Source of the DNA: Psychrobacillus sp. FSL H8-0483 | Lineage (GTDB): Bacteria > Bacillota > Bacilli > Bacillales_A > Planococcaceae | Reading direction: 5' to 3' | NCBI RefSeq assembly: GCF_038637725.1 | Contig: NZ_CP152052.1 | Coordinates: forward strand, 3,207,501-3,271,500 | DNA: 64,000 bases | Part shown: positions 2,387 through 31,211 of the stretch, piece by piece | Layout: each line of letters opens with the position of its first letter | Position numbering within the stretch: the stretch's first letter is position 1 | The notes under the pieces: generated by a model | Databases searched by the model: none | Told to the model about the DNA's origin: nothing | What the model saw: only the letters and a program-made list of their open reading frames with translations | Made by a program: the position numbers and the translations under genes

Positions 2387-3004
2387 ATGAACATGTCTAT
2401 TTATAAACAAATACTGGGCGATCAGTTTTATAGCCTTCAGCCAATGCTCCAAAAGAGATATGCACTGCCTAGTGGAAAATCTTTTCAAGCAAGCGGAGTA
2501 ATGAAAAAGATACGTAGAGGCCCTAAATGGATGTTCCCTCTATTTTTATTAGGAACACATTGGAAGTTTTTATTTCCCGAACATGGAGAGGACATCCCTT
2601 TCACGATCATGAATACGAGTCAAATCGGACAAAACGGCGAAAAACAAGTCCACTGGAAGAGAACGTTTTACTTTCCAAAGAAGAAAAGATATTTTAATGC
2701 GCTTATGAGTATGGATATGGAGAAGGGTGTCGTAAAGGACTATTTAGGAGAACCACGTTTATTTTACTCGGAACTGATTTTCTTTGTTACAGAAGTAGGC
2801 CATATGCAAATTGAATCAAGAAAGCAACGATTAGTTATGGGCAAGATTGAAATTCCATTGCCAAAAATCTTGCAAGGAATCGTTCAAGTAACAGAGCATT
2901 ATATAGAAGAAAGGGATGCTTTTTCTATACATGTCCAAATCCAAAATCCATTAATCGGCATATTATTTGAATATGAAGGGGAGTTTCGAGCGGATGACTT
3001 TTAA
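2387..3004 (+). CDS. DUF4166 protein (YndH-like)
   Basis: 205 aa, no signal peptide or membrane segment. DUF4166 proteins are uncharacterised and are often found with SRPBCC/DoxX proteins, as here. GGAG precedes the start by about 6 bases; a second in-frame ATG two codons later is equally possible. The end overlaps the next gene by 11 bases, so translation is probably coupled. Function unknown. Confidence 0.75.
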   Translation: MNMSIYKQILGDQFYSLQPMLQKRYALPSGKSFQASGVMKKIRRGPKWMFPLFLLGTHWKFLFPEHGEDIPFTIMNTSQIGQNGEKQVHWKRTFYFPKKKRYFNALMSMDMEKGVVKDYLGEPRLFYSELIFFVTEVGHMQIESRKQRLVMGKIEIPLPKILQGIVQVTEHYIEERDAFSIHVQIQNPLIGILFEYEGEFRADDF

Positions 3005-4553
3005 GCAAATTGTCTTACTACATACTATTTTATTTCTAATTGTCGTCATTTTTAATGTAACCCCTTGGTACTTTTTAATGTTAACTGTGGCTCAGCTTTT
3101 ATTTGTTCCACTTACTTTGCAATTAATCTTGAAAAAAGAAAATCGACTCTATTATTATTTTGCCATACCCGCATTCGTGTCAGTTTTCATTTTACAAACG
3201 ACGACAAATACTAACTTAGATCTATTATTTGCAACTATTTATCTACTATTCACATTCCTTGTAGCTATATATGGACTCAGACGTTTTATCCAACGAGGCT
3301 TTGCCCACATAGAGGAGTTTATGATTGATGCTGGGATGATGTATTTGTTCATCGGTGGTGTTTGGTTTTTTGCCTCTGTCACAGAAATAGATACAGGGTT
3401 TTCACCGATTCTTACTTGGCTAACAGCTATACACTTTCATTATTCTTCATTTTTATTACCTATTTTCTTAGGGTTTCTCGGTCGTTTACAGAAAAGCACT
3501 GCCTACAACATAATCTGTACGATAATATTAATATCCCCTATTGTTGTTGCACTAGGGATTACATTCGCTCCTTGGCTTGAACTTATTTCAGTAGTTCTCT
3601 ATATTACTGGGATCTATGGATTCATTGTTTTAGCTTTTCAAGCACCATTTCCAAGTGCTTTGCAAAAAAGTTTGGTACTCATATCATTTGGAGCGTTAGG
3701 TATCACGATTCTTTTCTCTTTGCTGTATGCTGTCGGAAATGTTTTTGGGGTTTTTCATGTAAGCATTAACTTTATGTTGAAATTTCATGGGTTCTTCAAT
3801 TGTATATTATTCGCTTTATGCGGGATGATTGGATGGTCTATTTTCACACCTCCTACTAAAGAGTTAGGATGGAACTTTCCAATCAGCAACATGAAAGGAA
3901 GGTTCTTCATTGGGGAGAAGATTTTATCGGAGAACATCGGTACCAATAGTTACAGTGGCCTTGTTGATCATATGGAAATGTATGTAGAAAGAGAAACACT
4001 ATCCCCTACTATCATCGATTTTTATGAAAATACAAGTCAGTACAAGCTTTTTTCTGAAGTACATTGGCACACTTGGTTTAAACCATTTGCGTCAGTTTAT
4101 AGGCTAATTAGTAGCAAAGTACAACAACTAAACCTTCCATATTCCAATAAACAAATGGAGATGACTGGTGACATCATCGCAGTAGAAGATGGTCGCTCAA
4201 AAACAAGAGCGTGGATACGAAAAATAGAGAAAGAAGTTATTTTTGTTGCTCTCTACTCTACCCATCAAAATAACAATAAACCCTATATGAATATCGCCTT
4301 GCCACTCCCTTGGTCGTCGATGATTGGGATACTAGAACTACATCAACAAGAAGAAAAGCTTGTCCTAACAAGTAAAGGAACTAGCGATTCCGATGCAGGA
4401 ATTTATTTAGCATTTAGTAAAAATGTTTTCAAACTACCTTTACAAGAACAATTTCTTCTAGAAGAAATAAAAGAAGGAAAACTTCGAGCTAAGCATCAAA
4501 TGCGAATTTTTTCATTTCCCTTTTTAACCATTAAATATGTAATTGACGGTTAA
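2994..4553 (+). CDS. YndJ-like multi-span membrane protein
   Basis: 519 aa. About residues 1-290 carry roughly nine to ten hydrophobic segments; the remaining about 230 residues are soluble and hydrophilic. Length and order match YndJ of Bacillus, of unknown function. The start ATG lies inside the end of the DUF4166 gene with AAGGGGAG about 10 bases upstream; the longer frame from a TTG at 2967 is not supported. It is the last gene of the operon, with a terminator starting about 30 bases after the stop. Confidence 0.72.
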   Translation: MTFKQIVLLHTILFLIVVIFNVTPWYFLMLTVAQLLFVPLTLQLILKKENRLYYYFAIPAFVSVFILQTTTNTNLDLLFATIYLLFTFLVAIYGLRRFIQRGFAHIEEFMIDAGMMYLFIGGVWFFASVTEIDTGFSPILTWLTAIHFHYSSFLLPIFLGFLGRLQKSTAYNIICTIILISPIVVALGITFAPWLELISVVLYITGIYGFIVLAFQAPFPSALQKSLVLISFGALGITILFSLLYAVGNVFGVFHVSINFMLKFHGFFNCILFALCGMIGWSIFTPPTKELGWNFPISNMKGRFFIGEKILSENIGTNSYSGLVDHMEMYVERETLSPTIIDFYENTSQYKLFSEVHWHTWFKPFASVYRLISSKVQQLNLPYSNKQMEMTGDIIAVEDGRSKTRAWIRKIEKEVIFVALYSTHQNNNKPYMNIALPLPWSSMIGILELHQQEEKLVLTSKGTSDSDAGIYLAFSKNVFKLPLQEQFLLEEIKEGKLRAKHQMRIFSFPFLTIKYVIDG

Positions 4554-4582
4554 AAAGGAAATAGACGTCAAATAAAAAGAAA

Positions 4583-4606
4583 AACCCAACCAATAGTTGG
4601 GCTTTT
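4583..4606 (+). terminator. Terminator of the yndGHJ-like operon
   Basis: Stem CCCAAC/GTTGGG with loop CAATA followed by CTTTTC. The same hairpin recurs at 4892-4918. Confidence 0.8.
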
Positions 4607-4657
4607 CAGACTGTAGACAAACTCAATTTTGGGTGTACAGTGTTGTATAGTAAATTC

Positions 4658-4773
4658 GGCAAGGACCACCACTTCGCTTTCCGTGAGCTTGGCTTCAGCC
4701 TCCTCGTCACTGCGTTCCTGCGGGGTCTTCTGCTCAAGCTGTTCCCAGAGGAGTCTTCGTGGTGGTCCTTGCC
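4658..4773. repeat. GC-rich dispersed repeat, copy 1
   Basis: A 116-bp element bounded by 15-bp inverted arms (GGCAAGGACCACCAC / GTGGTGGTCCTTGCC). The core read on the minus strand (CCCCGCAGGAACGC ... GACGAGGAGGCTGAAGCC) matches copy 3 at 47146-47268 closely. The GC content stands out from the surroundings. Open frames through it on both strands are by-products of the palindrome. Confidence 0.75.
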
Positions 4774-4891
4774 TTATAAACAATTCCTTAGAGATATCCA
4801 CTATCTTTATTTTTATTATATAAAGCAACCTCTTTAGTAATATTTATTATTATTCATAACCGTTTAAAAAAATACTTTTGTCGTCAAGCTG

Positions 4892-4918
4892 AAAAGCCCA
4901 ACCAATAGTTGGGCTTTT
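4892..4918. terminator. Terminator of kimA (bidirectional)
   Basis: AAAAGCCCAAC/GTTGGGCTTTT with loop CAATA, symmetrical, so it can act on both strands. It ends 7 bases from the kimA stop and duplicates the hairpin at 4583-4606. Confidence 0.85.
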
Positions 4919-4924
4919 CTAATG

Positions 4925-6751
4925 TTACTTCTTAAAATGATAAGGTACCGTTGTGACTACTACATCTTTTCGATAAAGCAAAATTGCTTTAATAAGTAAA
5001 CTAGACTGGTTATGAAGAATATTATGCCAGCCTTTTTTCGGAATAAACTGCGGTATCAATACCGTTACTCGGTAGTTAGATTCTTCTGCTTTATTCTCTA
5101 CTTTGCTAATAAATTTGGATAATGGTTGAATAATGCTTCTATAGTGTGAGTAAAGGGTCACTAACCGAATATCTGGTTGCCATTTCTTCCACTTTTCTTC
5201 GAACGATTTTTCATCTTCTTTATCGAAAGCTACATATACGGCTATAATGTGTGCTGGATTTAGTGATTTCGCATAGTTCAAAGAGTTCTCCACTACATGG
5301 GTTATTCCCGCAACAGGGACAAGAATAATATTCCCTTCAATTGGCATAACAGGTTCACAAGAAGATATACTTAGCTGTTCTCCAACAGCTACATAATGTC
5401 TTTTTACTTTGTGAAAACCTAAAACGAGAAGGGGCAAAAAGATTAATACTGCCCAAACCTGACCAAATTTAGTAATAAAGAAAATCATCATAACTGTGAA
5501 ACTAATTAATGCTCCAACAAAGTTAATGGTTAGTTTACCAACCCAGCCCTTAGGTTTTTCACGGAACCACTTCACTAGCATCCCTGTCTGGGATAGTGTA
5601 AATGGAATAAATACCCCTACAGCATAAAGTGGGATGAGTTGTTCCGTTTCGCCTTTAAAGATAACAATGAGCAGAATCGATGTAATTCCAAGTGTGATAA
5701 TTCCGTTAGAATAACCTAACCGGTCACCTCTCATTTTATACATACTTGGAATATATTTATCCTTCGACAGATTAAAAGCCAGTAAAGGAAAGGCTGAGTA
5801 CCCCGTATTTGCAGCGAGAACAAGTATCAAAGCTGTTGTTCCTTGGATAAAATAATACATATAATTTCTTCCAAACGTTTCAGATGCTATTTGTGAAATA
5901 ACAGTTTCCTCCACTTTCGGTGAAATACCATAATAAAAGGCAAGCACTACTATTCCTACCAATAAAACAGCAAGTAAAGAGCCCATTATTGCTAGTGTTT
6001 TAGCCGCATTTTTAGCACTAGGATACTTAAAGTTAGGTATCGCATTAGAAATTGCTTCCACACCTGTTAACGCAGAACTACCAGAAGCAAATGCTCTAAG
6101 TAACAAGAATAATGTAATCCCTGCAACTGGAGTGCCAATTGGTGCATGTAAATCAGGTGAGACATTCCCAGTTATTATATTAAAGAGTCCAACTCCAATT
6201 AAAATAAACAACGCAAGCACAAATAAATATACAGGATACGCGAGAATTGATGCGGACTCAGTAATTCCCCGTAAATTTAAAATGGTGATTAAAATAACAA
6301 GTACACTTGCAATTAACACATTATGATCATGTAAGCTTGGAATAGCGGAAGTAATAGCGTCCGTTCCAGCAGAGACACTTACCGCAACAGTCAAGATGTA
6401 ATCCACTAACAAAGATCCACCTGCAATTAAACCAGCATTTTCACCCAAGTTTTCTTTTGAGACAACATATGCACCTCCACCACGTGGATAAGCAAAAATA
6501 ATTTGTCTATAGGACAAGATTAGTGCCAGTAATAGGACAAGTACACCTACTGCAATTGGGATGGAATACCAGAAAGCTACTGTCCCAATCGTCATTAATA
6601 CAAGTAATATCTGTTCTGGACCATAAGCAACAGATGATAAAGCATCCGAAGATAGGATAGCCAAAGCTTTCGTTTTATTTAGTTTTTGATCACCTAATTC
6701 AGATGACTTCAATGGGCGACCTATTAAAAATCTTTTTACTACTGATAACAT
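4925..6751 (-). CDS. kimA: High-affinity potassium importer KimA
   Basis: 608 aa APC-superfamily transporter, the length of B. subtilis KimA (YdaO). About twelve membrane segments in residues 30-450, with the conserved ALSSVAYGPEQ segment near residue 37 and AYPRGGGAYVVS after the second helix, then a cytoplasmic tail. KimA proteins are proton-coupled K+ importers inhibited by c-di-AMP. Start chosen at ATG 6751 (MLSVVKRFLIGRPLKS) because AAGGAAG precedes it and it aligns with known KimA starts; the frame is open to 6799. The long leader carries a c-di-AMP riboswitch, so expression should fall when c-di-AMP (high K+) rises. Confidence 0.92.
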   Translation of the reverse strand: MLSVVKRFLIGRPLKSSELGDQKLNKTKALAILSSDALSSVAYGPEQILLVLMTIGTVAFWYSIPIAVGVLVLLLALILSYRQIIFAYPRGGGAYVVSKENLGENAGLIAGGSLLVDYILTVAVSVSAGTDAITSAIPSLHDHNVLIASVLVILITILNLRGITESASILAYPVYLFVLALFILIGVGLFNIITGNVSPDLHAPIGTPVAGITLFLLLRAFASGSSALTGVEAISNAIPNFKYPSAKNAAKTLAIMGSLLAVLLVGIVVLAFYYGISPKVEETVISQIASETFGRNYMYYFIQGTTALILVLAANTGYSAFPLLAFNLSKDKYIPSMYKMRGDRLGYSNGIITLGITSILLIVIFKGETEQLIPLYAVGVFIPFTLSQTGMLVKWFREKPKGWVGKLTINFVGALISFTVMMIFFITKFGQVWAVLIFLPLLVLGFHKVKRHYVAVGEQLSISSCEPVMPIEGNIILVPVAGITHVVENSLNYAKSLNPAHIIAVYVAFDKEDEKSFEEKWKKWQPDIRLVTLYSHYRSIIQPLSKFISKVENKAEESNYRVTVLIPQFIPKKGWHNILHNQSSLLIKAILLYRKDVVVTTVPYHFKK

Positions 6752-6833
6752 AATTCCACTTCTTCCTTTAAATTGTTGCTTTCCCCAACATAATGCCATC
6801 CCTAAATGATTATTTTAAACCATAAGAAACAAC

Positions 6834-6875: not shown

Positions 6876-7048
6876 ATTTCATTCGTCTCACCAGCTCCAT
6901 CTCCTCTCTCATTACGCTTACGAGGTTAGCTGTCGGGTTTGGGCTAAAAGAGTAGCCCTACCTACATACGTAGGATTCACCCCATATGACTCCTCAAAGC
7001 CACATAAAATGGGTCCCCCGTTCCGATTGGATTAAGCGATATAGAAAT
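6876..7048 (-). ncRNA. ydaO/yuaA-type c-di-AMP riboswitch
   Basis: The minus-strand sequence contains the conserved blocks of this class in order: CGCTTAATCC, CGGGGGACCC, GGGGTGAATCC, GTAGGGCTACTC, AAACCCGACAGCTAACCTCG and TAAGCGTAATGAGAGGAGA. The class binds c-di-AMP and usually switches off K+ uptake or wall genes. It sits in the kimA leader between a sigma-A promoter and an intrinsic terminator, the standard transcription-off design. Confidence 0.93.
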
Positions 7049-20622: not shown

Positions 20623-20991
20623 TCGGTGATCTTATGGCATTTGTCTGTCCGTCGCCCTCCTTCAACAGTACGAATAAGGTTAAGATCTTTTTGGATAATG
20701 AGTGAAAAGTTGCTTTCCAACTCATAAAGCTTCAGAGAATGCAATTTTGGGTGCTCTAGTGCTCCTCTATACAATAGATGCTAACTATTTTTTGATCATA
20801 TACTCTTTACCAGTTGAAGAAAATTAGCAGAAATGCTCTTCTTAAAGATTCTTGCTAGCTAAAAGGTCCATCCCTCTACCTTACCTTGTATGCAATCCAC
20901 TGCATTTTCCTTTAGTTCAAAGTACCAGACCTTAGCCTAAAGAAATGATTAAGTCAATGTCAATTGCTATATTATAGGATTAATTTTCTTA
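20623..20991. other. Unassigned stretch before the repeat array
   Basis: A minus-strand frame (20562-20774, 70 codons) starts MYRGALEHPKLHSLKLYELE and runs into the preceding hairpin; it has no ribosome binding site and I do not recognise it. It may be a degraded mobile-element end. The rest shows nothing identifiable. Confidence 0.3.
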
Positions 20992-21079
20992 TTCAACTAA
21001 CCTGCTTCTTTAGTTGAATAAGAAAAAAAGAGCCGTCAGCATCTCAATGATCTTTAAGTAAAGCCCCTGTCAGTTAAAG
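20992..21079 (-). repeat. attC-like repeat A
   Basis: Left arm TTCAACTAACC, inner arms CTTTAGTTGAA and TTTAAGTAAAG, hairpin around AGCCGTCAGCATCT, right arm degenerate (GTCAGTTAAAG). Lies 3' of the hydrolase gene. Confidence 0.7.
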
Positions 21080-21165
21080 TATATTTATTCACAAACTCTT
21101 CACTGCAAATAAATATTGTCTTAAGTGCTATATCAGCAACATCTGAGCAACTTTCATTTAATGAA

Positions 21166-21759: not shown

Positions 21760-21821
21760 ATTATACCCCCTATTAAATCAGAAACTTTCTTCTAATAATA
21801 CAAAATAAATGGATAATACTT

Positions 21822-21897
21822 ATTCAGCTAAACTGCGCCTTTAGTTCAAAAAGAAAAGAGCGTTACCCCTCTTAAGTAACACCCCAACTAATTCAAT
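21822..21897 (-). repeat. attC-like repeat B
   Basis: TTCAGCTAAACTGC, CTTTAGTTCAA, A-rich block, then a shorter hairpin and a diverged right arm. Ends 11 bases from the GNAT stop. Confidence 0.6.
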
Positions 21898-21907
21898 ATA
21901 AGCAACA

Positions 21908-22363
21908 TTAAATTTCTTTTTCCATCAAAACATTTGTAGTCTGATAACCTAATTTTTCATATAATCCTCTTGCGACCATGTTATGACCAAAAACATGAAG
22001 ACCTATTTTAATCATTCCAAGTTTTTGCCCAACATTCTCTATTTGCTTCATTGCTTCCTTGGCATACCCAAATCCTTGGTATTTTTCTAATATATTAATA
22101 TCATAAATAAATCCTTCTTTTTCAGATTTTTGTGCAAGCCATATAACTCCAATTGCCTTGTCATCATTTAGAATAGTGTATAAGAAATTACTCTCAGTCT
22201 TCTCACCATTTGGCAAAAGCTTTGTATATTCCTCTTCCGCTTTACTAATTGATTCTTCCTGATTCCAATTCCCAGATAAAACTTTTTCTTCCGCATATGA
22301 TTTAATCGCTGAAGTAATATATTTTTGATACTCATCGGAATTCATTAAAACTAATTTAATCAT
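21908..22363 (-). CDS. GNAT family N-acetyltransferase
   Basis: 151 aa. The acetyl-CoA-binding block is YQGFGYAKEAMKQIE followed by the usual GLHVFGHNMVARGLYEKLGY end. AGGGGGAG precedes the ATG. Target unknown. Unit between repeats C and B; the gap from start to repeat C is 57 bases. Confidence 0.85.
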   Translation of the reverse strand: MIKLVLMNSDEYQKYITSAIKSYAEEKVLSGNWNQEESISKAEEEYTKLLPNGEKTESNFLYTILNDDKAIGVIWLAQKSEKEGFIYDINILEKYQGFGYAKEAMKQIENVGQKLGMIKIGLHVFGHNMVARGLYEKLGYQTTNVLMEKEI

Positions 22364-22420
22364 TGTTTTTTCTCCCCCTTATACTTGTAACTTCTATAAA
22401 ATAGCATTCAATTCCTTCTT

Positions 22421-22500
22421 TTCACCAACATGCTGCGTTAGCTCTATAAGAAATAGGGCATTGTTTCTGCCCTTTTTGGTAATCAAATTCTGTTAAATTA
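22421..22500 (-). repeat. attC-like repeat C
   Basis: ACCAACATGCTGCGTTAGC left part; hairpin GGGCA/TGCCC; right end TTCTGTTAAATTA, which contains the Nudix stop codon. Confidence 0.55.
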
Positions 22501-22959
22501 TTTTATTACTGGCAAAGGCACCTGGTTCACCCAATCCTGAATGAATCGCTCTTGATGCGAGTTCAAATGAGGTAGGTTATTACGGGAAAAGAATCGGTGT
22601 TCGTAACTTTCTTCAGTGCGATGAAGTAATTCTCCTGAAAAACAACTTGAATGGAAAATAACCTGAACGCTGAAAACTTTATCTCCATTCTGATATTCTG
22701 CAAAACCTTCTTCACCTGAATAAAGACCAAACAACTGTAATTGTTCAACTTTTAATCCTGTTTCCTCGAATGTTTCTCTCACAGCTGTTTCAAGGAACGT
22801 TTCTCCAGGCTCCATAACCCCCCCTGGAATACCCCAAACATCGCGATCCGTTCGATGTTGTAGTAAAATCTTATTTTCTTGTTCAAGAATAATTCCACAA
22901 CCTACAGTCATGAGCATTTCATTTCCAATTAATTTGCGAATTGTTTGAATGTAATTCAT
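22498..22959 (-). CDS. Nudix hydrolase
   Basis: 153 aa. A perfect Nudix box, GGVMEPGETFLETAVRETFE then ETGL, follows the 23-residue pattern GX5EX7REUXEEXGU. Similar to MutT/ADP-ribose pyrophosphatase-type enzymes; the true substrate is unknown. ATG 22959 with AAGGAGG is preferred over 22992. Its stop codon lies inside repeat C. Confidence 0.88.
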   Translation of the reverse strand: MNYIQTIRKLIGNEMLMTVGCGIILEQENKILLQHRTDRDVWGIPGGVMEPGETFLETAVRETFEETGLKVEQLQLFGLYSGEEGFAEYQNGDKVFSVQVIFHSSCFSGELLHRTEESYEHRFFSRNNLPHLNSHQERFIQDWVNQVPLPVIK

Positions 22960-23009
22960 TATTTCCTCCTTGATCTTTTGTATAAAAAGCATTTTAATGG
23001 GGAGTCCTT

Positions 23010-23102
23010 CTTGAACTAACCTTCTTCTTTAGTTGAATAAAAAAATGAGCTGTCTAAACAGCTCAATGATTTTCAAGTACAGCACCACGTTAGTTCAACA
23101 AG
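23010..23102 (-). repeat. attC-like repeat D (best-preserved copy)
   Basis: Outer arms TTGAACTAAC / GTTAGTTCAA pair over 10 bases. Inner arms TTTAGTTGAA and TTTCAAGTA pair with one mismatch. Central hairpin GAGCTGT-CTAA-ACAGCTC with a T-run on the minus strand. 12 bases from the NIPSNAP stop. Confidence 0.8.
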
Positions 23103-23114
23103 TAGTTAACATTA

Positions 23115-23603: not shown

Positions 23604-23695
23604 AAAAAAAAGCACTCTATAAATAGATGTTTATCCCATATCCCTCCATTTCGATGCATATGATAGTTCAGTTCAAAAAAAAAGGAGGTAATATT

Positions 23696-24523
23696 TTGGG
23701 ATTAAGACGAAGACTTCTTTATGTAACAAATTTTGGTGATAACACGGTAGAAATTTATAATATCACTAATCCAACATCCCCTGTCCGTATTGGAGAGTTT
23801 GGTGCAGCAGATTTAAGTGATCCTATCGATGCAGCAATTACAGGTACTACTTTGTATGTAACAAATTTTGCTGATAACAACACGGTGGAAATTTATGATA
23901 TTTCCAATCCAACCGCTCCTGTCCGTGTTGGCGAGTTTGGTGCTGCAGATCTAATGCTTCCTTCCGGATTGGCTATCACAGGTACCACTTTGTATGTAAC
24001 AAGTCAAGATAATAATACGGTTGAAATTTATAATATTTCCGATCCAAACGCTCCTGTCCGTGTTGGCGAGTTTGGTGAAGGAGATATATTTGTTCCTGGC
24101 GGATTGGTGATTACAGGTACAACGTTATATGTTTCAAATTCAGGCGATGACACAGTGGAAATATATAATATTTCCAATCCAACCGTTCCTGTCCGTGAAG
24201 GCCAATTCAATTCCGGAAATTTAGATGGTCCTTTTGCATTGGCTATAAGAGGTACTACTTTGTATGTATCAAATACAGGGAATGACACGGTAGAAATTTA
24301 TGATATTACCAATTTAACCGCTCCAGTACGTGTAGGCGAGTTTAATGCGAATGATGTTTTTGGATTGGAAATTACAGATTCTACGTTGTATGTAGCAACC
24401 TCTCTTGCTAACACGGTACAAATTTATGATATTTCCAATCCAACCGATCCTGTACCTGTAGGGCAACTCAATGCCGGAAATTTAAATCGTCCTTCCGGAA
24501 TGGCTATTTTTATGACAGTTTGA
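23696..24523 (+). CDS. LVIVD-type beta-propeller protein, six repeats
   Basis: 275 aa made of six tandem repeats of about 46 residues, each with LYV(T/S)N ... NTVEIY(D/N)I(S/T)NP ... PVRVGEF. This suggests a six-bladed propeller of LVIVD/lactonase-like type. There is no signal peptide, so it would be cytoplasmic or exported by another route. TTG start at 23696 with AAAGGAGGT 6 bases upstream; the longer frame from 23627 has no site. It is on the strand opposite to its neighbours in the array. The DNA repeats are near-identical in places, so copy number may vary between strains. Confidence 0.75.
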   Translation: MGLRRRLLYVTNFGDNTVEIYNITNPTSPVRIGEFGAADLSDPIDAAITGTTLYVTNFADNNTVEIYDISNPTAPVRVGEFGAADLMLPSGLAITGTTLYVTSQDNNTVEIYNISDPNAPVRVGEFGEGDIFVPGGLVITGTTLYVSNSGDDTVEIYNISNPTVPVREGQFNSGNLDGPFALAIRGTTLYVSNTGNDTVEIYDITNLTAPVRVGEFNANDVFGLEITDSTLYVATSLANTVQIYDISNPTDPVPVGQLNAGNLNRPSGMAIFMTV

Positions 24524-24861: not shown

Positions 24862-25362
24862 ATGTCTAAATATACAGTAGAAGTTAAATTACAAGCGGTG
24901 GTACGCTATTTAACTGGAAACGAAAGCTATCAAACTATTGCAGAAAGCATTGGCGCAGCTAAATCTCAAGTCATTACTTGGGTGAAATTATTTGAAGCAC
25001 AGGGTGAAAAAGGGTTTAAGAAAGGCTATACAAGTTACTCATCTGGGTTTAAACTAGACGTACTTAATTTTATGAACGAAACAGGTACGTCTTTTCTAGA
25101 AACGGCAAGCACATTTAATATTTCTTCTCCGAGTATCATTTATCGGTGGGATCAGTTGCTTAAGACAAAAGGATTGGACGCGCTAGAACCAAAGAAAAAG
25201 GAGCGTCCATCCATGAAAAAAGAAACGAAAAAAGTTGAAGCACAAAAATCAATCCCAGCCGAAGACTCAATAGAAGCCCTACAAGCAAAAATCAAGCATT
25301 TAGAAATGGAGAATGCTTATTTAAAAAAGTTGAAAGCTTTAGTTCAGGCGCAGAAAAAATAA
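24862..25362 (+). CDS. IS150-like transposase OrfA
   Basis: 166 aa with two helix-turn-helix units (YQTIAESIGAAKSQVITWVK and FLETASTFNISSPSIIYRWD) and a C-terminal coiled coil, as in IS150/IS3 OrfA. The slippery run AAAAAAG at 25323-25329 should allow a -1 shift into orfB to give the fused transposase. Confidence 0.9.
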   Translation: MSKYTVEVKLQAVVRYLTGNESYQTIAESIGAAKSQVITWVKLFEAQGEKGFKKGYTSYSSGFKLDVLNFMNETGTSFLETASTFNISSPSIIYRWDQLLKTKGLDALEPKKKERPSMKKETKKVEAQKSIPAEDSIEALQAKIKHLEMENAYLKKLKALVQAQKK

Positions 25363-26225
25363 CAAACAAAATCAAAGCGCAAGTAATTTTTGAACTAAAG
25401 GAACAATATGAGGTCGTGGATTTAGTTCAAATCGCTGACATTCCACGCAGCACTTATTACTACTAGGAAAAGCGACTGAATCAAGTCGATAAATATGAGC
25501 CTGTTAAAGAAGTAATCAATATCATTTATCACGAACATAAGGGGCGTTATGGTTACCGTCGCATCACGAAAGAACTGCAGAAATACGGTTTTACGTATAA
25601 CCCGAAGACCATTAACCGCTTGATGAATGAAATCGGTTTAAAATGTGAGGTCCGTATGAAGAAGTATCGCTCTTATAAAGGAAACGTCGGAAAAATCGCT
25701 CCTAATGTATTACAACGTGATTTCAAGGCGGAGAAAATGAATCAGAAATGGGTAACAGACGTGACCGAATTCCATCTCTTTGGAGAAAAACGTTATCTGT
25801 CACCTGTTCTTGATTTGTGTAATGGTGAAATTATCGCATATAAAGTCATGAATCGACCGGTCTATCAACTTGTAGGTGATATGTTAGACGAAGCTATTCT
25901 GCGCCTACAGCCAGGAGATGAAGTCATTCTTCATTCCGATCAAGGCTGGCAATATCAGATGAAAAAATATCAAAAAACACTACAAGAGCACCAGATAACG
26001 CAAAGTATGTCCCGTAAGGGAAACTGCTTAGATAATGCAGTCATCGAAAATTTCTTTGGCTTATTAAAATCAGAACTGCTTTATTTACAAGAGTTTGAGA
26101 GCATGGCGCATTTTGAAAAGGAATTAGAAGAATATCTTGAATATTACAATCACAAGCGAATGAAGGCAAAATTAAAAGACCTGAGTCCGGTAGAATACCG
26201 AACTCAGATCTTAGAAGTTGCCTAA
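25329..26225 (+). pseudogene. IS150-like transposase OrfB with internal stop
   Basis: The -1 frame after the AAAAAAG slip reads through SFSSGAEKITNKIKAQ into a standard IS3 OrfB, but codon 25464-25466 is TAG after RSTYYY, where relatives commonly have Trp, so TGG to TAG is likely. Downstream the DDE residues are intact: [14 protein letters not shown] and DNAVIENFF. The 201-aa frame from 25620 has no convincing start. The nonsense codon would block the OrfAB transposase. Confidence 0.85.
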
Positions 26226-27421: not shown

Positions 27422-27505
27422 TTTGATTCCCCCGTTTGGTGTAACCTTTTCTTCCTAATAATTCTCTAACAAGTTTGACATAACCCTATCATAACTAGAT
27501 CCCTT

Positions 27506-27595
27506 GTTAAAAACTAACCTGCTGCTTTAGTTGAACAAGAAAAAAGAGCTACATTGCAACTCAATGTTCTTCCGCTATAGCACTCGTTAGTGAAT
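27506..27595 (-). repeat. attC-like repeat I
   Basis: AACTAACCTGCTGCTTTAG then TTGAACAAG; hairpin GAGCTACATTGCAACTC; right end GCACTCGTTAGTGAA, which carries the stop codon of the small frame beside it. Confidence 0.7.
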
Positions 27596-27682
27596 AATTT
27601 TTTCCCATACTCTTTGTACATTCTGAAGATTTGCATCTGAAAAAATCAACTTGTATATATCAGGTTTAGTAGTGCTTTTCAA
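27587..27682 (-). CDS. 31-aa frame, probable truncated cassette gene
   Basis: TTG start with AGGTGA upstream, 31 codons, ending in NLQNVQRVWEKIIH. The TAA is inside repeat I. It looks like the C-terminus of a longer protein cut by repeat J, but a genuine small protein is possible. Unrecognised. Confidence 0.3.
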   Translation of the reverse strand: MKSTTKPDIYKLIFSDANLQNVQRVWEKIIH

Positions 27683-27706: not shown

Positions 27707-27780
27707 CATTCAACTAACCAAAGTTAAAAGTAAAATACAAAAAAGCGTCAATTTTTTAAAATCAACGCTGTTAATTTATT
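27707..27780 (-). repeat. attC-like repeat J
   Basis: TTCAACTAACC left arm; hairpin AGCGTCAATTTT/AAAATCAACGCT; right end CTGTTAATTTATT containing the histidine-phosphatase stop codon. Acts as that gene's terminator. Confidence 0.6.
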
Positions 27781-28301
27781 TCATTAAAATCCAACTTGCC
27801 AATTACTTCATATCCTTTTCTCCAGCCTTTTGGTTGAATTACAATTCCAGTCATATACGGTAAATTCCCTAACTCTATTTCTTTAGGAAAACTATGGCCT
27901 ATGATTATCCTGTTTTGTCCTGTAGAGGGTGGAAGTTCGAATAATCTTCTATTCTCATGAATGATGATTTTTCTCTTAGCATCAGTAATTGTTGGCACTT
28001 CACTTAAAGTAACAATTTCTGCCAATGATTGTACAATACGTATAATCTTATTAGGAAAAGCTAATTTTGCAGTGTCAATTGCTCTACAAAAGGGACTTGA
28101 AATTACAACTGGTTCGATTGGTATTCCTGTCTGCCTAATGACTTTTCCAATAATCATTGCTTGTTGTTTACCAGTCTCACTTAAATTCCTTTGGGTCCTA
28201 CAATCTTCAAATTTTACAGTTTGGTCATCATTTCCGACTGTTGCTTCAGCATGTCTGAAATAGATAATATAACCACCATTCAGTAGCTTGTCAAATGTCA
28301 T
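27771..28301 (-). CDS. Histidine phosphatase superfamily protein
   Basis: 176 aa. The RHAE motif (YFRHAEAT) with phospho-accepting His17 and a second catalytic His in IIIGHSFP place it in branch 1 of the phosphoglycerate-mutase-like phosphatases. The region SETGKQQAMIIG is typical. ATG 28301 with GGAGG 6 bases upstream is preferred over 28322. Substrate unknown. Unit between repeats K and J. Confidence 0.85.
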   Translation of the reverse strand: MTFDKLLNGGYIIYFRHAEATVGNDDQTVKFEDCRTQRNLSETGKQQAMIIGKVIRQTGIPIEPVVISSPFCRAIDTAKLAFPNKIIRIVQSLAEIVTLSEVPTITDAKRKIIIHENRRLFELPPSTGQNRIIIGHSFPKEIELGNLPYMTGIVIQPKGWRKGYEVIGKLDFNEIN

Positions 28302-28397
28302 GTTATCCTCCAATACTGCCATATTTATGTTAAATGATTAACTAGTATATTTAAATTATCCTAAAAATGTTACTAATTCTAGATGGGAATAAAACTC

Positions 28398-28408
28398 TTC
28401 TTCAACTA
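28398..28408 (-). repeat. attC-like repeat K, left end
   Basis: TTCTTCAACTA; the copy continues at 29138 after the group II intron remnant. Joined, it reads CTTCAACTAACCTGCTGCG, the canonical form. Confidence 0.65.
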
Positions 28409-29137
28409 GTCGAGTAGAAGGGAACCTCTCTAACTTACGGTAGATTGTGTTCCTCCCCCTCACAGAACCGTGCTTGCGCTATTCACGCACACGGCTCCTC
28501 CTAGTCATCATTCACAAAATGTAGCTAATCTCTTTTCTTAAGTCGTATATATTCACCTTAACTCTTGGTGAAGGTAACGGATGTTTATGAAGAAAGAGAT
28601 TGAATTTATCCCAAGTAAAGGATTTCCTTTTGCTAATCTTCCTTTTAGAAGAGTATGGTGTACAAGCGATAATAAGCAAGGAAACCAAATGCCTTTGTAG
28701 GGAGTCGGATAGCAGCGTAGTACCAATGAAGTTGGGTAATGCCGATGGAGGAAAGGCTAGCTACCAGTTATCATCCTTACTAGGGACACATTTACTACAC
28801 GCAGAGGTAGGTATAAATGGGAAACAAAACTACTAAGGATAGCAGAACCATGTGTAACGTGCCAAGGTCTCTGACTCCAGAGAGGTTTTATCCTTCTTGC
28901 CTTTAACGAAGGATAAAATGTAGCTTTCTGCTGCAGGTAAAGCATCAGCCCTATCGATTTACTAACATTATGGAGCTCAATCCCTTCAACCATTTGGCTT
29001 TCGGCCCGCCACCTAACTGTCTACGCTTATAGACTAACGTTACCGTTAGCCCTCCAAGACTCGCTACGAGCGAATGGCTAATTCTTACTCGACGGGAATC
29101 CCACCCGCTATATGATACGACCTAGGCTCGGCCGCAC
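28409..29137 (-). mobile_element. ORF-less group II intron remnant
   Basis: 729 nt on the minus strand. It begins GTGCGGCC (GUGYG consensus) and ends TCTACTCGAC (AY consensus). Near the 3' end lies a domain V (28465-28497) followed by a domain VI-like hairpin. The 5' half has domain-I-like blocks (GGGATTCCCGTC, AAGCGTAGACAGTTAGGTGG, CCGAAAGCC). No reverse transcriptase frame remains. Removal of exactly this interval restores a canonical repeat, which defines the ends. Domain V has GAAU instead of GAAA in the loop and is one base short, so it may not be catalytic. Confidence 0.75.
28465..28497 (-). ncRNA. Group II intron domain V
   Basis: GAGCCGTGTGCGTGAATAGC then GCAAGCACGGTTC: the AGC triad, stem and distal GGTTC of domain V. 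Confidence 0.75.
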
Positions 29138-29220
29138 ACCTGCTGCGTTAGCACAATAAGAAAAAAGAGCCGTCTAAGTAGCTCATTGATCTTTGACTAA
29201 CGCACCCGTTACTTTAATAA
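29138..29220 (-). repeat. attC-like repeat K, main part
   Basis: ACCTGCTGCGTTAGCACAAT, hairpin AGCCGTCTAAGTAGCT, right inner arm GACTAACGC, end CCCGTTACTTTAAT. Inner arms GCGTTAG/CTAACGC differ from the CTTTAG type of other copies on both sides, a compensatory change. Confidence 0.7.
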
Positions 29221-29259
29221 AAATTACATAATCTTCAGCCTTTCTCTTTGATTTTCAGG

Positions 29260-29493: not shown

Positions 29494-29498
29494 ATACC

Positions 29499-29592
29499 TT
29501 ATTCAACTAAACTGGCTATTTAATTGAACAAGAAAAAGAGCCATCTATGCAGCTCGTTGATCTTTTGTAAGTGAAAAGTGCCTCTGTTTAAT
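29499..29592 (-). repeat. attC-like repeat L
   Basis: TTATTCAACTAAACTGGC, inner arm TTTAATTGAAC, hairpin AGCCATCTATGCAGCT, end CCTCTGTTTAAT holding the stop codon of the adjoining fragment. Confidence 0.7.
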
Positions 29593-29664
29593 ACAGCCCC
29601 CCATACCATTTTTCAATAATTCCACCACCTTTGGTTGTTACTTCTCCATGAATGTTCGAAGTTC
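29588..29664 (-). pseudogene. Gene 3' fragment (about 25 codons)
   Basis: Open frame without a start, ending NIHGEVTTKGGGIIEKWYGG then LY; the TAA lies inside repeat L and the 5' side is cut by repeat M. Unrecognised truncated cassette. Confidence 0.4.
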
Positions 29665-29667
29665 CTT

Positions 29668-29745
29668 CTTACACTAAACTGCTGGGTTAGAATTCAAAAA
29701 AAAAAGCGTTAATCCGTCCTGGATCACCGCCTCTATAATTTAAGA
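29668..29745 (-). repeat. attC-like repeat M, degenerate
   Basis: ACACTAAACTGCTGGGTTAG, A-run, hairpin region AGCGTTAATCC...GGATCACCGC, right arm lost. Confidence 0.5.
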
Positions 29746-29789
29746 AGAAATTTCATAATTTCTTCTACACATTAAAATAATCCAATCCC

Positions 29790-31074: not shown

Positions 31075-31100
31075 TATTCAACTAACCTGCCCCGTTAGCC
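31075..31100 (-). repeat. attC-like repeat N, left end only
   Basis: TTATTCAACTAACCTGCCCC then GTTAG; the rest is lost. Last copy on this side. Confidence 0.5.
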
Positions 31101-31211
31101 ATCCATGAAGCTTTTCTTCACCACAGAATATGCAAGAATATTACGTTCTTCCATGGTAGTTTAAGTACATTTCTTCACAATCTTTATAATGGCATTTACA
31201 TAAATATCCAA

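Follow-up and report, generated by a model that had tools for sequence, protein, structure and literature searches.

The window, here the whole 64,000-nt stretch of Psychrobacillus sp. FSL H8-0483 DNA that was analysed, carries at 20.9-31.1 kb a series of repeats that each follow single small genes. Repeats of attC-like form, all on the minus strand, lie at 20988-21083 (101.5 bits to the repeat model R1), 21819-21901 (a short form, 70.7 bits), 22415-22502 (degenerate, 22 bits), 23007-23103 (92.3 bits), 27503-27600 (88.9 bits), 29498-29596 (79.3 bits) and 29665-29749 (degenerate, 25.4 bits), and a variant repeat at 31082-31200 (minus strand) has GATTGTGAAGAAATGTACTTAAACTA upstream and CATGGATGGCTAACGGG at its box. 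The cassette genes, likewise on the minus strand and with functions read from translation only, include a GNAT-like acetyltransferase of 151 aa (21908-22363), a NUDIX-like hydrolase of 164 aa (22498-22992) and a histidine-phosphatase-like protein of 183 aa (27771-28322), which adjoins the intron described below. An IS3/IS150-type two-frame transposase, as read from its translation, is inserted in the cassette array at 24862-26225 (plus strand), and a 298-aa protein with tandem repeats of 45 aa (135 nt) is encoded at 23627-24523 on the plus strand, opposite to the cassettes. A c-di-AMP (ydaO/yuaA) riboswitch (110.6 bits) lies at 6899-7048 on the minus strand, upstream of a 624-aa ORF at 4925-6799.

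Within this array, the minus strand at 28409-29137 holds a group II intron remnant of 729 nt that runs from GTGCG (29137) to CTACTCGAC (28409); these ends, proposed in the initial annotation along with a domain V, proved exact when set by an empty-site repeat and about 60 relatives. In-silico removal of the element rejoins GTGCTAACGCAGCAGGT to TAGTTGAAGAAG (CTTCAACTA to ACCTGCTGCG on the plus strand), and, just as that annotation had it, the rejoined junction restores a GTTAGTT box that had been split between GT and TAGTT. An array repeat is thus interrupted in its last box, between GCAGGT and TAGTT; the 5′ part of this repeat (box1, terminator and box2 as far as GCAGGT) occupies 29138-29222 (model R1, 59.4 bits) and its 3′ part, TAGTTGAAGAAG, lies at 28397-28408, both on the minus strand. 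The Rfam model group-II-D1D4-6 (RF02005) matches the domain I region at 28865-29101 with 151.7 bits (E = 1.5e-43) and Intron_gpII (RF00029) matches domains V and VI at 28409-28499 with 48.4 bits (cut-off 40), so that group II structure extends beyond domain V and the element is no domain V look-alike. The catalytic triad in its domain V is AGC. The guide EBS1 (ACCTGC, 28933-28938) pairs 6/6 with IBS1 (GCAGGT, 29138-29143), the final 6 nt of the 5′ exon, and EBS2 (GTTAGT, 28961-28966) pairs with IBS2 (GCTAAC, 29147-29152), also in the 5′ exon, all on the minus strand; both pairings covary among the relatives, EBS1 over 49 copies and EBS2 in the best of three registers. A search of a phage collection with the element returned no match.

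On the gene strand the target repeat is composed of box1, an intrinsic terminator and box2 over 85-100 nt, with the consensus AACTAACGAGTGCTTTAGTT...GAGC...GCTCTTTTTTCTTATTGAACTAACGCAGCAGGTTAGTTGAATAAG, and a CATGGATGG motif precedes box1 in many array repeats. At least 125 copies, arranged in arrays, are present in the host genome, a figure that derives from 150 scored candidates out of 2461 and, save for a few palindromes read twice, is a minimum; among 80 other Bacilli genomes sampled with strict filters, only 3 gave repeat matches. The box reads GTTAGTT/AACTAAC, against the integron attC core GTTRRRY/RYYYAAC, and would be the expected site of action of an integron-type integrase, which bears out the view that the intron sits near the cut point of such enzymes. 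The empty window site, treated as a single strand, is predicted to adopt an attC-like cruciform fold with an energy of -16.6 kcal/mol (z -4.1), but in the minimum-energy folds of 56 elements the outer attC-like helix appears in only 22, the inner in 25 and a local HP2 hairpin in 25 (attC-like about 40%), and covariation, compared between attC-like and local hairpins, is weak on all helices. The cassettes, each of one or a few genes and an attC-like site, may move as units: a 2.1-kb query spanning three window cassettes matches other genomes in separate blocks, two of which correspond to one gene and its repeat (655-1290 and 658-1297) while others fall within a single cassette, the acetyltransferase-like gene at 21908-22363 and its repeat form a unit that other genomes have on its own, and the NUDIX-like gene is likewise found alone elsewhere.

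A candidate for the integrase of these arrays is a XerA-like tyrosine recombinase (TR) of 279-294 aa, encoded in the host at G000:C1:1853420-1854253 on the minus strand (L025/L208; NF040815, 222.4 bits, cut-off 220). Most of 19 Psychrobacillus genomes have it at 91-96% identity, and degraded pieces of it are found in or beside arrays. No IntI-type integrase was found in the host (TIGR02249, cut-off 265; best score 94 bits), and TR itself, at 90.6 bits, stays under that cut-off, which sets the system apart from classical integrons. In the loci examined, the TR gene points away from a leader that ends in the box ACTAACGnnGCAGGTTAGTT and is highly conserved over its first 60 nt, where identity in 10-nt blocks is 0.84-0.98; in an alignment of 13 leaders the sequences beyond this box are unrelated, with the exception of a first cassette common to L209 and L211 and another common to L210 and L219. 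As in integrons, the candidate integrase gene thus has at its side a single att-like box at which the variable cassettes begin, although, in contrast to the textbook arrangement, repeats also occur behind this gene. The same leader is carried by a Sporosarcina plasmid, and the attI-like box of the host is itself interrupted by an ORF-less intron (L012). The initial annotation had not seen this integrase and attI organisation. Together, these features strongly support the repeats as cassette joining sites of attC-like type, in arrays that would be served by the XerA-type TR with its divergent attI-like box.

It could be argued instead that the repeats, having no recombinase of their own, are only REP-like elements or hairpins that act as bifunctional terminators, and that the cassette look comes about by chance gene spacing. 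The intrinsic terminator that they hold on the gene strand would suit this account, as would the local HP2 hairpins, which are about as frequent as attC-like folds. However, terminators or REP-like elements would leave unexplained an attI-like box that comes with a conserved integrase and leader and, in the loci compared, precedes first genes that are mostly unrelated, homology blocks that match cassette units, and fragments of the same TR in or beside arrays, and we regard this account as rather unlikely.

A scan of named genomes for related introns gave 80 loci. Full-length relatives, which the initial annotation had suggested should be sought, are about 1.94 kb long and encode a 442-aa RT (TIGR04416, 363.5 bits) in which no endonuclease domain was found. 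About 60 copies with RT at least 83% identical are inserted, in many genera, at ...AACTAACGGG with GCAGGT or GTGCTT directly before TAGTTGAATAAG and variants of this site, that is, at the same type of box as the window remnant; the suggestion that the repeat is the target of an intron family was therefore well founded. More distant relatives (RT at most 77% identical) insert elsewhere, several of them at sites resembling GGAGACTCCTG followed by CGGGAG; sister introns with RT about 70% identical (L080, L081, L084 and L089) occupy such sites, which resemble another dispersed Bacillus repeat. The RT tree unites all 43 correctly read RTs from box-targeting introns in one clade (support 100/98); L103, whose interrupted gene had been read in the wrong frame, was left out. 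ORF-less introns, which are 649-687 nt long and have no RT but keep their ribozyme parts in order, are common, and these mobile forms had also gone unnoticed in the initial annotation. The genome G011 carries eight of them (L188-L195) at eight different repeat sites, seven of the eight with an identical deletion junction, and only a truncated cognate RT was found there; a second ORF-less lineage (about 655 nt) is present in several species and a third (687 nt) in another. Such multiplication after RT loss suggests that help was given in trans at some time. On the Peribacillus simplex plasmid pSHB26 (L016), an ORF-less intron (3001-3679) and a full-length one (4195-6135) lie 0.5 kb apart, and each has an EBS1 that matches its own IBS1. 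A plasmid filed under Arthrobacter citreus (CP053689.1; L020, L231) carries Bacillaceae-type introns, repeats and recombinase, and the record is probably misnamed.

Recognition of the target by these introns appears to follow base pairing. Among 49 copies there are ten EBS1 types, including ACCTGC, AAGCAC, ACGCAC, ATGCAC, ACGCGC, TCGCGC, AACTGC and AAGCAT, and EBS1 pairs 6/6 with its own IBS1 in 43 copies, in 40 of these by Watson-Crick pairs only. Mean EBS1/IBS1 pairing is 5.82, against 4.48 ± 0.15 with shuffled partners, and none of 5000 shuffles was as good; the 49 copies are related by descent, so that the shuffle results here and for EBS2 are not strict probabilities, and the 16 distinct EBS1/IBS1 pairs taken alone give the same covariation result. 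For EBS2/IBS2, where three registers were allowed because the spacing of box1 and box2 differs by one base, the best register gives 5.48 against 4.91 ± 0.09 with shuffled partners, again with 0 of 5000 shuffles as good, whereas one fixed register gives no signal. The 3′ exon begins with T in 48 of the 49 copies. Covariation of both pairs points to IIB-type recognition through pairing, and the idea that the target is read only as a hairpin has to be given up.

A further possibility is that the introns are carried passively with the cassettes by the integrase, so that their common site would reflect cassette shuffling and not repeated retrohoming. The introns do always lie within arrays and on the repeat strand (the repeats around introns in other genera are also on the intron strand), the cassettes appear to move, and in a few copies (L058, L189 and L192) EBS1 does not match the IBS1 of the same copy, all of which passive carriage would accommodate. 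However, it would not be expected to make EBS1 follow IBS1 over many target variants, to place ORF-less copies with the same deletion in one genome at several sites whose flanks are unrelated, or to lead introns into each of the two box types and into the attI-like box as well, as is observed. Passive carriage is for these reasons judged improbable, and retrohoming by EBS/IBS pairing is preferred.

The window copy itself has decayed in two ways. Its RT was said to have been lost, and the gene is indeed gone, but the last 42 codons persist at 28515-28640 (minus strand), 83% identical to residues 401-442 of the RT, and the deletion left the junction ATTAGCAAAAGGAAATCC. In addition, and unsuspected in the initial annotation, the segment 28637-28847 (query 291-501), which corresponds to D2-D3 and the start of D4 in the relatives, is reversed relative to its flanks and lies on the plus strand in the intron sense, with about 35-40 nt lost at one end. 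The opposite arrangement is found in all other copies with matches, whether in the host genome, on plasmids or in related genomes, so that the relatives have this segment in order and a complete D1-D6 in a single orientation is absent from the window copy, which should not splice, as the inversion is expected to abolish splicing. The junction ATTAGCAAAAGGAAATCC recurs in another copy of the host genome (L013a), which suggests that the RT was probably lost earlier than the inversion occurred, and no RT cognate to the window intron was found in the host genome. That the inverted segment is a regulated invertible element, or an assembly error, and not a product of decay is suggested by the reversed orientation itself and nothing more; the missing 35-40 nt, the fact that no flanking inverted repeats were noticed and the absence of the inversion from every other copy make this very improbable, and decay is accepted here.

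As to the class of the intron, the comparison with class C made by the initial annotation does not hold. Class C introns have a CGC triad, and the host offers a control in its own class C intron (L027; G000:C1:2300095-2301369, minus strand; RT of 412 aa), which has CGC and an RT scoring 554.8 bits to GsI-IIC, and which adjoins a phage-type integrase gene. The RT of the window family scores 152 bits to GsI-IIC and 181 bits to LtrA. Membership of class C was rejected on the AGC triad, an RT unlike those of class C, and a 6-nt EBS1 and an EBS2 that covary with the target. The family is IIB-like, as EBS2/IBS2 pairing, the AGC triad and an RT without an endonuclease domain are the features of IIB-like introns without endonuclease, among which the family may fall in class D, E or F. 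That the remnant is nevertheless a class C (IIC-attC) intron recognising the folded hairpin of the repeat, as integron-associated IIC introns do, would fit the position of the insertion, close to where crossover in an attC-like site is presumed, and the lack of an endonuclease domain, but is already largely refuted by AGC in place of the CGC of the host class C intron, by 152 against 554.8 bits to GsI-IIC and by the covariation of both a 6-nt EBS1 and EBS2 with the target, and is scarcely credible.

Taken together, the present data allow a model, to which we assign a probability of roughly 0.85, in which the window remnant is a dead copy of a IIB-like intron family that retrohomes by EBS/IBS pairing into the boxes of integron-like recombination sites in Bacillaceae and their relatives. 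The model draws on what is legible in the sequences, namely the intron and its site, the EBS/IBS covariation, the RT clade, the ORF-less copies, and the inversion and RT loss, and from these, recombination of the sites and retromobility of the introns are inferred. The intron would have arrived as an RNP while its RT was still present, the ORF may then have been removed by deletion, and the inversion that presumably came next should have put an end to splicing. What is left would now only interrupt one attC-like site, which should not recombine at that box.

The open-licence literature offered nothing direct on the repeat, on its association with introns or on such an integron in Bacillota, where classical integrons are not expected. 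We lean towards the broader proposal that these arrays constitute an undescribed integron-like platform for gene capture in Bacillaceae and Planococcaceae, run by a XerA-type integrase, together with a clade of IIB-like introns, including RT-less forms mobilised in trans, that homes to its attI and attC boxes, and that the two systems may interfere, as the attI-like box at the one integrase locus still intact in the host is now plugged by an intron. If so, the association of introns with cassettes would be widened from class C to IIB-like introns that find their target by base pairing, and the intron sites would serve as an independent pointer to an apparently large cassette-capture system of Bacillota with its own integrase family. 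The two target variants and their covarying guides open the targeting rule to direct testing and could yield programmable intron tools for Gram-positive bacteria, and the RT-less introns that multiply on one repeat family would be a bacterial case of trans-mobilised retroelements.

Among known systems, the IIC-attC introns (S.ma.I2 and its kin; Quiroga 2008; Leon and Roy 2009), as they are cited in PMC4424553, lack an endonuclease and insert in attC sites, and the present family resembles them in having no endonuclease and in inserting in attC-type sites of cassette arrays. It differs in its AGC triad, an RT far from GsI-IIC, a 6-nt EBS1 and an EBS2 that covary with the target, a Bacillota host and the additional use of an attI-like box. 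The class E (IIB) fragments H.ha.F1 and H.ha.F2 in a CALIN of Halorhodospira halochloris, two truncated copies with no target rule (PMC7923331), are likewise IIB introns that lack an endonuclease and lie in a cassette array devoid of IntI; however, the introns described here form one clade over many genera, with an exact insertion point, covarying EBS/IBS pairs and derivatives that have lost the ORF. ORF-less bacterial group II introns aided by IEPs in trans are described as rare (PMC4424553), and those reported here resemble them in having a complete ribozyme, no RT and a related RT in relatives, but differ in that several lineages have multiplied on one repeat family, with eight copies in one genome. 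With integrons, including sedentary chromosomal integrons, the arrays share an integrase gene divergent from a single box that is followed by tandem gene-plus-repeat cassettes of mixed small genes; unlike integrons, they would be served by a XerA-like integrase of 279-294 aa that falls far under the IntI cut-off, their box is AACTAAC...GTTAGTT and not GTTRRRY, their sites carry a terminator, and their hosts are Bacillaceae and Planococcaceae.
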